This document shows, piece after piece, positions 1 to 4,911 of a stretch of 33,738 nt of DNA (positions are counted from its first letter, which is position 1; the number at the start of each line of letters is the position of its first letter). This DNA is from Ignavibacteriota bacterium (lineage in GTDB: Bacteria; Bacteroidota; Ignavibacteria; UBA10030; UBA6906). Position numbers and translations under genes: made by a program. The stretch lies in the NCBI GenBank assembly GCA_003152875.1, contig PMBF01000108.1, forward strand, positions 1,089 through 34,826, in the 5' to 3' direction. Under the pieces are notes generated by a model. The model ran no database searches and was not told where the DNA came from. It was given only the letters and a program-made list of their open reading frames with translations.

Positions 1-1539
1 GATGCCGGTTCCACGCCTGCGCAGCGCCTCGTCGCCGATCAGCAGCAGAGCGTCGTGTCTCGACCAGTCGTTCACGCCGGCATGGAGCCGCTCGAAGGAA
101 GAGCGGACGCAATGCTTCTTTTTCAGAAGGATCTGCAGGAGTCTGATGGAGGTTGCGGTGTCATCGGTGATGCCGATGGAACCCCCCTCGAGGCCCGCCC
201 AGGGCACCCTCGAAAAGAGGAGAACGCTTTTCACTTCGCGGTGGTTGGCGATCGTCCACCCCATGAGCTCCAGCCGGTCCTGCTGAGCGAGATAGTCCAT
301 CAGGGAAAAGGGTCCGGCATCGAGCTGTCCCTCATCGCAGAGGATTCCCATGCGGCGCGGCACGACGGGGAAGAGGCGGAAACGCCCCTTTTCGAAGTGG
401 GCGTAGAAGGGAACCGAGTTCAGGAACGGGATCTGTCCGACGATCCGGTCGCCGTGGAGGTGGACCGGGTTGTAAAAGGCATCCCGTTCGACGGGGATCT
501 TTCCCGCATCACGAATGATGCGGATGATGTTCTCCTTCGCCAGTGTCATCGGGCTCACCGCGCCGGCATCGTGTGCGATCTTCTCCCCTCCCACGGTCCC
601 GTCCATGTCGTCCGCGCCGAAATTGAGGGCCACCGACGCCACTTCCTCCGTCAGCATCACCCAGTAGGCCTTGATGTGAGGGAAGTTGTCCAGCATGAGA
701 CGGGAGACGGCGATGGTCCTGAGGTCGTCGATCGCCGAGGTGAAGCGGTCGCGGGGCTTTATCCCGGTGTCGCCCGGCTGGAACGCAAGCGGGATGAACG
801 TGAGGAACCCGCCTGTCTCGTCCTGCGCTTCCCTCAGGCGCATCATGTGGATCAGCCGCTCCTCCAGAGTCTCGATGTGGCCGTAGAGCATCGTGCTGTT
901 CGTAGGAATGCCCAGCCGGTGCGCGGTCCTGTGGACCTCGAACCATCCCTTTGCGCCGATCTTCTGCGGAAAGAGCAGTCTGCGCACCCGCTCGGAGAAC
1001 ACCTCCGCTCCTCCCCCCGGCAGTGTGCGGAGTCCTGCTTCCTGCAGCCGGCGCAGCACTTCCTCGATGGACATCCTGAATTTCTTGTGAAAGAAATCGA
1101 TCTCCACCGCTGTAAAAGCCTTCACGTCCGCGCCGGGGAGGACCGAGTGGACCGAGCGTACGATGTCGAGGTAGCGTTCCCAGGGCCAGTCCGGGGGCAT
1201 CCCGCCCGTGATGTGCACCTCGCGGATCTCCGGGGTGAGCTTTGCGAGGATCTCCCGGGTCGTCATCTCGTAGGCGCGCGGGTCCCCCTTCTTCGCGGCA
1301 AAGTCACAGAATTTGCACGAGAGCACGCAGACGTTCGTGTGCTCGATCTTCTGATTGAGAACAAAGTAGATCCCGTCGCCGGAGCGGTTCTGCTGGACCG
1401 CATGCGCCATCTTGCCGAGGGCAATGACGTCGGGGCTGCGGTACAGGGTGAGACCGTCCTCGAGCGTCAGCCTCTCGGCGCGCTGGACCTTGTCCCAGAC
1501 GGGAACAAGCGAACGGTCGTGAAAGACGATGTCATGCAT
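1..1539 (-). CDS. mqnE-mqnA: MqnE-MqnA fusion: aminofutalosine synthase plus chorismate dehydratase (partial, runs off left edge)
   Basis: A single open frame of 513 visible codons begins at ATG 1539 (MHDIVFHD...) and has no stop before base 1. Residues 1 to about 357 are a radical SAM MqnE: the cluster motif CVLSCKFC gives the CxxxCxxC cysteines, and the domain ends in the family-typical 'GKIPVERDAFYN'. About eight residues later, with no stop and no ATG, GTG or TTG at the junction, chorismate dehydratase (MqnA) begins with 'GQIPFLNSVPFY', followed by 'DEGQLDAGPFS' and 'GITDDTATS'. About half of MqnA is visible. MqnA converts chorismate to 3-[(1-carboxyvinyl)oxy]benzoate, which MqnE joins to adenosine using SAM, so the fusion unites steps one and two of the futalosine menaquinone pathway. 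It lies 145 bases after the ubiD-type gene on the same strand. No clear Shine-Dalgarno precedes the start. A sequencing deletion of a stop codon is possible but unlikely, because both domains read cleanly in one frame. Confidence 0.92.
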   Translation of the reverse strand, partial: MHDIVFHDRSLVPVWDKVQRAERLTLEDGLTLYRSPDVIALGKMAHAVQQNRSGDGIYFVLNQKIEHTNVCVLSCKFCDFAAKKGDPRAYEMTTREILAKLTPEIREVHITGGMPPDWPWERYLDIVRSVHSVLPGADVKAFTAVEIDFFHKKFRMSIEEVLRRLQEAGLRTLPGGGAEVFSERVRRLLFPQKIGAKGWFEVHRTAHRLGIPTNSTMLYGHIETLEERLIHMMRLREAQDETGGFLTFIPLAFQPGDTGIKPRDRFTSAIDDLRTIAVSRLMLDNFPHIKAYWVMLTEEVASVALNFGADDMDGTVGGEKIAHDAGAVSPMTLAKENIIRIIRDAGKIPVERDAFYNPVHLHGDRIVGQIPFLNSVPFYAHFEKGRFRLFPVVPRRMGILCDEGQLDAGPFSLMDYLAQQDRLELMGWTIANHREVKSVLLFSRVPWAGLEGGSIGITDDTATSIRLLQILLKKKHCVRSSFERLHAGVNDWSRHDALLLIGDEALRRRGTGI

Positions 1540-1684: not shown

Positions 1685-3466
1685 TTATTTCCAGTACGTC
1701 TCCCACCTTTCCTCCACGGACTTCCGGATGCTGTCCGTCATGCGCAGCGCCCCGGGGTATCCCGTTTTCCACGTGGCGTCGATGCCCATCACACCGCCGT
1801 ACACGGGGCAGATGCCGATCAGCCGCTGCTCGCTGAACAGGATGTCGCGCTCGCAATCGAACCTGGTGAAGATTCCCCAGATGCGATTCTCCTTGTCCCT
1901 GATGTCCACATCGTCGCTCACCACGGCGACCATGCGAATGTCCTTGGTGTCGGGGTGGCGCAGCAGCGCCTCGAGAATCTCCCTGCCGCTGCCTGAGGTC
2001 CTGACAACCAGCATCGTGTCGTGCGCCAGGACCAGGTCCGAGATTCCCGGGTGCACGCTGCGCAGATGGTCGAACCGTCTGGCGCCTGGCTCCCGTTCGA
2101 GCCGCGGGCGTGGAGGCCGTGCCGGCTTTCGGGTCGCATCAAGGATCATCCGGCTTCCGAGGTTCATGGTAAAGCTGGTGAAATCCAGCGTGTCCAGAGG
2201 CACACGCGGAATCAGCACGAAATCGAAATGGGGATCGAAATTGTCCCGCACTTCCTTCATAACCGCGTCGAAGTCCCGTACGTTCACTCCCTCCGAGACC
2301 AGCACGATGCATTTGGTAAGGGAAAGCTGCGCCATCCCCATAAGGCCCAGCGCGGTTTTCATCGATTCCTTGGCATATCGCTGGTCCACCGCGACGGCCA
2401 GCAGATTGTGGAATCCGGCCTCGTAATACGCCCAGAGTGAGCTGACCTCGGGATGCACCAGACGCGCCAGCGGTCCCAGGATCTGCTGGGTGGCATCGCC
2501 GAGGAACTTGTCTTCCATGGGGGGAATGCCCACGACCGTGGCCGGATAGACGGCGTTTCGCCGGTGCGTGATGCGCCGGAGGTGGAACACGGGAAAGTCG
2601 GCGGCGTGAGAATAGTGTCCGAAGTGATCGCCGAAAGGGCCCTCCGGCCGGCGCTCATGCAGCGGCACCTCTCCCTCCAGGATGAACTCGGCATGGGCAG
2701 GGACGTCGATGCCGATCGAGCTCCCGCGAACCATTTCGGTGCGATGCCTTCGCAGGAACCCGGCGAACATCGCCTCGTCGATGTTTTCGGGGAGCGCGGC
2801 GATGGTGGCCATGAGCAGGGCCGGATCGGTACCCAGCGCAACGGCAAGCTCGAACGGTCTCTCCAGTTTCTCCGCCTGGAAGTAGTGAAACCCGCCCCCT
2901 TTCTGAATCTGCCAGTGCATGCCGGTGGTCCGTTTGTCGAACACCTGCATCCTGTACATCCCCATGTTCCGCTTGCCGGTGCGGGGATCGTAGGTCACCA
3001 CCTGGGGGAGCGTGATGAATCTGCCGCCGTCACCCGGCCAGCAGGTGAGCACGGGGAGGCTGTCGAGGTCCGGCTCCTCGATGATCTGCTGGGCGATTCC
3101 TGACGAGACCCGGCGCGGGGGCGCAGCAAGGAAGCGCCGTGCCAGTGCGCGGTGCTTCCAAAGGGAGCTGGGTTTCGGGGGAACAATGTCGCCGAGGAAT
3201 GAGATCAGTTCCTGTCCGAGCTCGTCCGGGTGGCACCCGAGGGCGAGCTCGCACCGGCGATCGCTCGCCAGCGTATTGATGATGAGCGGATAGGATGAGC
3301 CTCTGACGCGCTCAAACCAGAGTGCGGGCTTCCCTTCCCTGATCGCGCGCGAAGCAATCTCGGTGATCTCGAGGCACGGGTCCACCTCCGCCGTGACCCG
3401 GTGGAGTTCCCCCTGCGTCTCGAGGTAGCGGGCAAAATCACCCAGTGTCCGGAAGGTTGGCTTCAT
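1685..3466 (-). CDS. mqnL: UbiD-family prenylated-FMN decarboxylase of menaquinone synthesis (MqnL-type)
   Basis: The 593-residue protein belongs to the UbiD family, which decarboxylates aromatic acids with the cofactor prenylated FMN. Visible family blocks are 'NMGMYRMQVFDKR' (residues 167-179, cofactor and substrate site with a conserved Arg), 'HWQIQKGGGFH' (184-194) and 'EGPFGDHFGHYS' (275-286). The last holds the catalytic acid Glu275 and, five residues on, Asp280 where fungal Fdc1 has Glu. The protein is about 100 residues longer than E. coli UbiD (497), with the extra length toward the C terminus. Its neighbours are a UbiX homologue 66 bases upstream, a UbiA homologue before that, and an MqnE-MqnA fusion downstream. 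This context points to decarboxylation of the prenylated dihydroxynaphthoate in menaquinone synthesis rather than ubiquinone synthesis. Substrate assignment is inferred from context. Confidence 0.9.
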   Translation of the reverse strand: MKPTFRTLGDFARYLETQGELHRVTAEVDPCLEITEIASRAIREGKPALWFERVRGSSYPLIINTLASDRRCELALGCHPDELGQELISFLGDIVPPKPSSLWKHRALARRFLAAPPRRVSSGIAQQIIEEPDLDSLPVLTCWPGDGGRFITLPQVVTYDPRTGKRNMGMYRMQVFDKRTTGMHWQIQKGGGFHYFQAEKLERPFELAVALGTDPALLMATIAALPENIDEAMFAGFLRRHRTEMVRGSSIGIDVPAHAEFILEGEVPLHERRPEGPFGDHFGHYSHAADFPVFHLRRITHRRNAVYPATVVGIPPMEDKFLGDATQQILGPLARLVHPEVSSLWAYYEAGFHNLLAVAVDQRYAKESMKTALGLMGMAQLSLTKCIVLVSEGVNVRDFDAVMKEVRDNFDPHFDFVLIPRVPLDTLDFTSFTMNLGSRMILDATRKPARPPRPRLEREPGARRFDHLRSVHPGISDLVLAHDTMLVVRTSGSGREILEALLRHPDTKDIRMVAVVSDDVDIRDKENRIWGIFTRFDCERDILFSEQRLIGICPVYGGVMGIDATWKTGYPGALRMTDSIRKSVEERWETYWK

Positions 3467-3532: not shown

Positions 3533-4084
3533 TCATTCCAGGTCCTCTGCCCGCCACCCGTTCGCCTCTCTCACGCCGATCTGCGCAAGAACCCTGTCGG
3601 TGAAGGCGCCGACATACTCTTCGACGCTGCCGGGAAGGACATACATGGGGGGGGAGATCGGCATGATTACGGCGCCATATCCGGAGAGCTTTGCGCACTG
3701 TTCGAGGGAGACGGTGGACATCGGCGTCTCCCTCACGCAGATCACGAGCTTGAAGCGTTCCTTCAGGCAGACCGCGGCCGTCCGCGTGATCAGCGTGTCG
3801 CCGATCCCCGATGCGATCTTGCCGATCGTCGAGGTGGACGCGGGAATGATCACCAACGCGTCGATGAGGTTGGACCCCGACGCCGTGGGGGCCGTCAGGT
3901 CCTCGTCGGAGAAGATGCGGTGGACGTGCGGCTTCAGGTCCTTCTCGCTGATCCGGAGCTCATCGCGCAGCAGCACTTTGCCCCAGGAGCTGACGATGAG
4001 GAATTTCCGGTCGGGGCATTTCTTCAGGAAATCCACCGCGAAGGCGGCCCCGGAGGAGCCGGTGATCCCGACGACGATGTTCAC
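3533..4084 (-). CDS. mqnM: UbiX-family flavin prenyltransferase (makes prenylated FMN for the UbiD enzyme)
   Basis: This 183-residue protein is a UbiX flavin prenyltransferase, which attaches a dimethylallyl group to FMN to make the cofactor of UbiD decarboxylases. Family features are the N-terminal 'GITGSSGAAFA' loop, 'SNLIDALVIIPAS' with the conserved P-A-S segment, 'CVRETPMS', and 'SPPMYVLPGSVEE' near the C terminus. I place the start at GTG 4084 (VNIVVGITGSSG): it gives the usual family length and shares four bases (GTGA) with the stop of the preceding UbiA-type gene, a translational-coupling arrangement. A longer open frame reaches to 4348, but its extra 88 residues are antisense-like, Arg- and Pro-rich, and overlap the UbiA gene. 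The UbiD-type partner follows 66 bases downstream. Confidence 0.92.
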   Translation of the reverse strand: MNIVVGITGSSGAAFAVDFLKKCPDRKFLIVSSWGKVLLRDELRISEKDLKPHVHRIFSDEDLTAPTASGSNLIDALVIIPASTSTIGKIASGIGDTLITRTAAVCLKERFKLVICVRETPMSTVSLEQCAKLSGYGAVIMPISPPMYVLPGSVEEYVGAFTDRVLAQIGVREANGWRAEDLE

Positions 4085-4911
4085 GCGCGCACCCCGACGA
4101 GGATCATGAGGAAGACCGCAAATGCAGCCGCCGCATTGATCTTGAAAAAGGCCAGCTCGACATCGGAGGCCTTCCTCTGCTCGAGATACAGGAGGTACCC
4201 TGTCAGGAGGAGCAGCGGCAGCGCGAGAAGGGAAAGGATCGATTGCACGAAGAGGACGGCCAGCAGGACGAAGGCGATGACGTGGAAGACCGCGGAGAAC
4301 CGGAGCGCGTCCCGCCTGCCGAACCTCGCCGGAAAGGAGTAGAGACATTCCTTCCGGTCGAACGCCTCATCCAGCGTCGCGTAGATGATGTCGAATCCCG
4401 CCCCCCAGAAGAGTGTAAATAGCGAGAGCAGCGCAGGGGTGAACAATCCGTCGAGCGAAGGGGACACGGCAAACCACCCCCCGAGAGGACCCATGGCAAG
4501 ACCCAGCCCCACTCCGAAATGCGACAGCGGGGTGTACCGCTTCATCGTCGGGTAGACGATAAAGACGGCCAGCGGGATCGGCGAGAGCATGAAGCAGAAC
4601 ATCGAGATGAGCCAGGCCGAGCCGAAATACAGCATCAGGCCTGCCGCCAGGACCCCGAAGCCTTCCGTGAGCGTCATCCGCCCGCTCGGAAGGTCCCTGT
4701 CCGCAGTCCTCGGATTGCGTGCATCGATGTGCCGGTCGATGATCCGGTTCAGGGCGAAGGCGACGGTTCGCGCTCCCGTCGCGGCCCCCAGGACGAGGAG
4801 CAGGAGGCCCGGGCCAGGCACATGCCCGTGCATGCCCAGGAGCACTCCGCTGTAGATCAGCGGGAGTCCGAAGAGCGTGTGCTCAATCTTGATGAAGGAG
4901 AAGTATTTCAT
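4081..4911 (-). CDS. mqnP: UbiA-family prenyltransferase of menaquinone synthesis (MqnP-type), integral membrane
   Basis: The 276-residue polytopic membrane protein belongs to the UbiA prenyltransferase family. The first Asp-rich motif 'NRIIDRHIDARNPRT' lies around residues 55-69, and the second, 'DIIYATLDEAFDRKE', at about 175-190. Both bind Mg-pyrophosphate of the polyprenyl donor. Hydrophobic stretches between and after them fit the usual eight or nine membrane helices. In futalosine-pathway bacteria this homologue (MqnP) prenylates 1,4-dihydroxy-6-naphthoate, and the adjacent ubiX-, ubiD- and mqn-type genes favour that role over 4-hydroxybenzoate prenylation. The gene starts 39 bases after the stop of guaA, and its TGA overlaps the GTG of the next gene. 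Confidence 0.9.
   Translation of the reverse strand: MKYFSFIKIEHTLFGLPLIYSGVLLGMHGHVPGPGLLLLVLGAATGARTVAFALNRIIDRHIDARNPRTADRDLPSGRMTLTEGFGVLAAGLMLYFGSAWLISMFCFMLSPIPLAVFIVYPTMKRYTPLSHFGVGLGLAMGPLGGWFAVSPSLDGLFTPALLSLFTLFWGAGFDIIYATLDEAFDRKECLYSFPARFGRRDALRFSAVFHVIAFVLLAVLFVQSILSLLALPLLLLTGYLLYLEQRKASDVELAFFKINAAAAFAVFLMILVGVRA

Follow-up and report, generated by a model that had tools for sequence, protein, structure and literature searches.

Helicobacter is an example of a pathogen that makes menaquinone (vitamin K2) through the alternative, futalosine pathway. Because it is used by some pathogens, this pathway has been proposed as an antibacterial target (PMC13280913). The known MqnE structure, that of the Pedobacter heparinus enzyme (6xi9/6xig), is of a stand-alone protein, and characterised MqnA, from S. 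coelicolor (SCO4506; 2nxo/7ahr) and D. radiodurans (DR0370; 2i6e/6o9a), is likewise separate. A precedent for the fusion of consecutive enzymes of a cofactor pathway, including a radical-SAM enzyme of the CofH/MqnC/MqnE family, is CofGH, the bifunctional FO synthase.

Here, we analyze a gene of an Ignavibacteriota bacterium in which MqnE and MqnA are joined in one frame. Both enzymes are known, and what is new is their joined architecture: a literature search, with most subscription journals outside its scope, found no description of an MqnE-MqnA fusion, which may nonetheless be annotated automatically in databases such as UniProt or InterPro.

The fusion gene and its menaquinone neighborhood

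The fusion gene occupies the left edge of the window, by which we mean the whole 33,738-nucleotide stretch of DNA analyzed (G000:C48:1089-34826; Table 1). Translation of the minus strand gives a single frame from the ATG at position 1539 to base 1, 513 codons without a stop. In profile searches, the product matched TIGR03700, the MqnE equivalog, at residues 15-359 with 463.5 bits (cut-off 434.55; profile positions 2-351 of 351), and PF02621 (MqnA/MqnD) at residues 367-508 with 78.3 bits (cut-off 26; profile positions 3-149 of 252); NF006687 (CofGH) was also among the profile matches. The solved structures closest to the MqnA part are those of S. coelicolor MqnA (2nxo/7ahr). The borders of the profile matches leave a linker of 5-8 residues, and a codon scan found no in-frame ATG, GTG or TTG at the junction of the window gene. 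The first-pass annotation, which had described an uninterrupted in-frame fusion with a linker of about eight residues and no usable start at the junction, is thus confirmed: the window gene is a genuine MqnE-MqnA fusion, a complete MqnE running into MqnA.

Table 1. Features of the fusion gene, its pathway neighbors and the stand-alone paralog (positions in the window unless a contig or locus is named)
Feature	Position	Strand	Basis or remark
mqnE-mqnA fusion gene	1..1539	-	513 codons in the window; ends inside MqnA at the scaffold gap left of base 1
MqnE domain (aminofutalosine synthase, radical SAM), residues 1-359	463..1539	-	TIGR03700 above equivalog cut-off, PF04055, PF19288
Radical-SAM cluster motif CxxxCxxC (C71, C75, C78)	1306..1329	-	invariant in the alignment
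Junction/linker, residues ~360-364	448..462	-	profile match borders; no stop or start codon
MqnA domain (chorismate dehydratase), N-terminal part, residues 365-513	1..447	-	PF02621
N374, counterpart of S. coelicolor MqnA active-site Asn	418..420	-	alignment
S438, counterpart of S. coelicolor MqnA active-site Ser	226..228	-	alignment
UbiD-type menaquinone decarboxylase (MqnL-like)	1685..3466	-	TIGR03701, 506.5 bits (cut-off 495.9)
UbiX-type flavin prenyltransferase (MqnM-like)	3533..4090	-	TIGR00421 above cut-off
UbiA-type prenyltransferase (MqnP-like)	4081..4911	-	TIGR01475 above cut-off
Stand-alone MqnA-like (PF02621) paralog	G000:C71:39002-39736 (L002:1471-2310)	+ in L002	also L135-L140

The two bases that precede the window (C48:1087-1088) are an NN scaffold gap within the MqnA domain, at which about 55 residues are missing by alignment with relatives. 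Leftward extension of the contig, a check that the first-pass annotation had proposed for finding a full MqnA domain, recovered the MqnA C-terminus (HGRRIGMSPAEVADYLGGF...) past the gap in another frame, followed by mqnC, which slightly overlaps the end of MqnA; the full domain is present in relatives. A frame of 875-898 codons that spans mqnE through mqnC on the window's contig (L003:3-2696, minus strand) is artefactual and reflects the 2-N placeholder; a triple MqnE-MqnA-MqnC fusion was rejected, as the stretch past the gap is nonsense in that frame and the true MqnA C-terminus lies in a different one. Gene callers could report a false mqnE-mqnA-mqnC triple fusion from such a placeholder.

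Neighboring genes complete the futalosine pathway. MqnC, partial at the contig end, adjoins the fusion (386.2 bits against a TIGR03699 cut-off of 428.1; profile positions 1-294 of 342), and UbiD-, UbiX- and UbiA-type genes lie on its other side (Table 1). The listed ORF of the UbiX-type gene starts upstream at 4348, with the TIGR00421 match beginning at ORF residue 91, and the MqnP models match the UbiA-type prenyltransferase below their cut-offs. The end of the window's contig (C48) overlaps that of a second contig (C109) by 152 bases at 99.3% identity, and the latter carries mqnD, ubiE-like and aroB-like genes, identified from their translations, so that the pathway genes lie together. The set present in the window's genome comprises MqnC, an MqnD-like protein and the UbiD, UbiX and UbiA types. 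A profile search of this genome gave no match to the futalosine hydrolase model TIGR03664; because both this genome and all 20 relatives encode PF01048 nucleosidases, we make no claim that the hydrolase is missing. One PF01048 match of this genome (G000:C91:78310-78791) is split across two frames, one of them with a TGA, and a second, intact PF01048 protein is encoded on C1.

Distribution and single origin of the main-clade fusion

A fusion of about 620 residues, encoded in one stop-free frame across both domains, was found in 44 of the 60 genomes of the window's order, the window's own included; the remaining 16 gave no match, mqnC alone or a fragment, and no intact unfused mqnE was found among the 60. 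Close relatives with two separate genes and an indel, which the first-pass annotation had named as the refuting case, were thus sought in the order and found absent, each intact mqnE being fused. A search for the same two-domain architecture in other genomes extended its range to the class and to KSB1. Another 16 genomes of the class, from families f13, f15 and f16, carry the fusion (cut short in one), families f12 and f20 have mqnE unfused, and no fusion was found in the members of the phylum sampled outside the class. A search of the KSB1 phylum gave matches in 7 of 82 genomes; the fusion is intact in five of these and broken or truncated in two. By taxon label, the fused set falls in Ignavibacteria/Ignavibacteriota and Bacteroidota MAGs, candidate division KSB1 and one MAG labelled Deltaproteobacteria (L058). 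The fusion in the latter is of the Ignavibacteria type, at 59% in MqnA, and may reflect a misbinned contig, a misnamed genome or gene transfer.

Trees were built for each domain alone and for the joined alignment, with 25 sampled fusions in each. The fusions formed one clade in the joined tree (bootstrap/SH-aLRT 100/100) as well as in those of MqnA (SH-aLRT 93) and MqnE (SH-aLRT 99); the main-clade fusion has a single origin, with the full support of the joined alignment. In the nearest unfused lineages (Latescibacterota, Omnitrophota and Dehalococcoidia), mqnE lies directly before, or overlaps, mqnA, and tandem mqnE-mqnA genes with a single in-frame stop between them are present in Gemmatimonadota and, within the window's phylum, in families f12 and f29. 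The first-pass annotation had pointed out that MqnA, which acts before MqnE, is C-terminal in the protein. This reversal is real and matches the gene order of the unfused sister lineages, from which it follows that the domain order was inherited from the ancestral gene order and needs no functional explanation. The fusion would have arisen when the stop or boundary that separated neighboring mqnE and mqnA genes was lost, in one event before the divergence of the sampled Ignavibacteria-type families and the KSB1 group or with spread between them, and would have been retained afterwards.

Another MqnE-MqnA fusion, with a longer linker, is encoded in the Gemmatimonadota MAG B16T1B5 (L081:4721-6712). 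A constrained tree test rejected a shared origin with the main clade (p-AU 1.7e-47), and the two fusions are separate. No stop-free fusion like it was found in the rest of its class as sampled, and the Gemmatimonadota fusion may be a one-off event or else an error. In several relatives, mqnE and mqnA lie in frame and are separated by one stop. In the MqnE part of this fusion, the region of the cluster motif has the sequence CILRKTCTFC, with an insertion within the motif. By the logic of gene fusion, the retention of the main-clade fusion in several families of the class and in KSB1, together with this separate event, is evidence for joint action of MqnA and MqnE.

A probable single polypeptide with a candidate chorismate dehydratase

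The AlphaFold2 model of a 620-residue fusion (L041), built from a 23-sequence alignment, has a pLDDT of 83.3 and a pTM of 0.84, with pLDDT values of 88-94 around the junction (residues 341-380). It matches the MqnE structure 6xi9 over residues 1-366 (Z 37.4) and the MqnA structure 7an9 over residues 364-618 (Z 31.3), so that the domain matches stand back to back and the C-terminus of MqnE leads nearly straight into the first MqnA strand. Of 46 sequences, 43 have a junction of 26 residues (VERD to LNS) and the other three one of 29. This constancy and the model would suit a fixed arrangement of the domains.

Since the window belongs to a draft assembly with an NN gap inside the very gene, the fusion might be an assembly, frameshift or binning artefact in which sequencing error joined separate genes, but the stop-free frame and near-constant junction recur in the 44 genomes of the order, the 16 others of the class and the five of KSB1. 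Conservation across these independent assemblies refutes an artefact, and its presence in dozens of genomes excludes chance; we give such an error practically no weight. Alternatively, internal initiation or proteolysis could free a separate MqnA and leave the fusion nominal. Some in-frame GTG, TTG or ATG is indeed found in 36 of the 46 junctions, but the candidate codons sit at differing positions, the other 10 junctions, that of the window included, have none, and the junction is predicted to be ordered rather than a loose, cleavable loop. No Shine-Dalgarno-like motif precedes any of the candidates, although in this phylum such motifs may carry little evidential weight. With no conserved start and no Shine-Dalgarno motif across the 46 junctions, an internal start was rejected, and release of a separate MqnA by either means appears very improbable.

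The same genomes offer a competitor for the role of the fused MqnA domain. Order members typically hold three PF02621 proteins, namely MqnD, the fused MqnA and a stand-alone third, and if the fused domain were a non-catalytic relic, regulatory or substrate-binding, this third protein (Table 1) could be the real chorismate dehydratase. It is full-length and conserved across the order, but it lacks both the Asn and the Ser of the MqnA pocket, which are invariant in the fused set in every family sampled; we take both to be catalytically important, the Asn because it is altered in the deposited S. coelicolor variants 7an6 and 7an7 and the Ser from work on the S. coelicolor enzyme. The paralog also persists in five genomes (G029, G035, G043, G055 and G058) in which MqnE, MqnC and MqnD were not found, and in most loci examined its gene lies near trmD and/or recN, away from the mqn genes (with an rplS-like gene in between in the window's own genome). 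Beyond the order, two fusion-bearing genomes lack it; in one, the KSB1 genome checked, MqnD and the fusion are the only PF02621 proteins. Possibly, the paralog is a ligand-binding protein. No other canonical MqnA was found in the fusion-bearing genomes, and the fused domain of complete relatives matches PF02621 along almost its entire profile, at about 145-185 bits. Since the fusion has kept the pocket Asn and Ser and the paralog has lost both, the fused domain very probably serves as chorismate dehydratase in these cells and is the best candidate for their only such enzyme, and we consider it very unlikely to be a relic. Its identity to characterised MqnA is only about 22-29%, and its activity is therefore one that we infer.

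Possible coupling of two steps and comparison with known enzymes

A bifunctional MqnA/MqnE enzyme is the best reading of the fusion from sequence comparison, with a probability that we put at roughly 0.87, and both domains are presumably active. The C-terminal MqnA would dehydrate chorismate to 3-enolpyruvylbenzoate, and the N-terminal radical-SAM MqnE would then form aminofutalosine from this product and the adenosyl moiety of SAM; a single protein would carry out the two initial committed reactions by which the futalosine pathway leads to menaquinone. The fusion suggests that these steps are physically coupled. A handover of the intermediate within the protein is speculative; putative channeling of 3-enolpyruvylbenzoate, plausible and compatible with the structure prediction and conservation, is a tentative proposal that we hold to be rather less probable than its opposite. 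Similarly doubtful is a rigid assembly of two active sites in which the MqnA cleft would hand 3-enolpyruvylbenzoate, unreleased, to the barrel of MqnE, across an interface that copies a transient MqnA-MqnE complex of bacteria with separate enzymes. The fused enzyme is a natural single protein in which channeling of this intermediate in the futalosine pathway can be probed.

Compared with known systems, the MqnE domain is matched over its whole length by the P. heparinus enzyme and TIGR03700, with the CxxxCxxC motif in common, an equivalog-level score and 38-39% identity to the solved structure, but it carries a second enzyme at its C-terminus. The MqnA domain shares the fold (Z 31) and the pocket Asn and Ser of the S. 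coelicolor and D. radiodurans enzymes, which are proteins of their own, whereas here MqnA is joined to MqnE. The adjacent mqnE-mqnA pairs of Latescibacterota, Omnitrophota, Dehalococcoidia, Gemmatimonadota and families f12 and f29 have the same order as the domains of the fusion, in several cases with an overlap or one in-frame stop between the genes, but they encode two polypeptides. In CofGH, which belongs to the F420 pathway, the fusion partner is another radical-SAM enzyme, whereas the fusion described here joins MqnE to MqnA.
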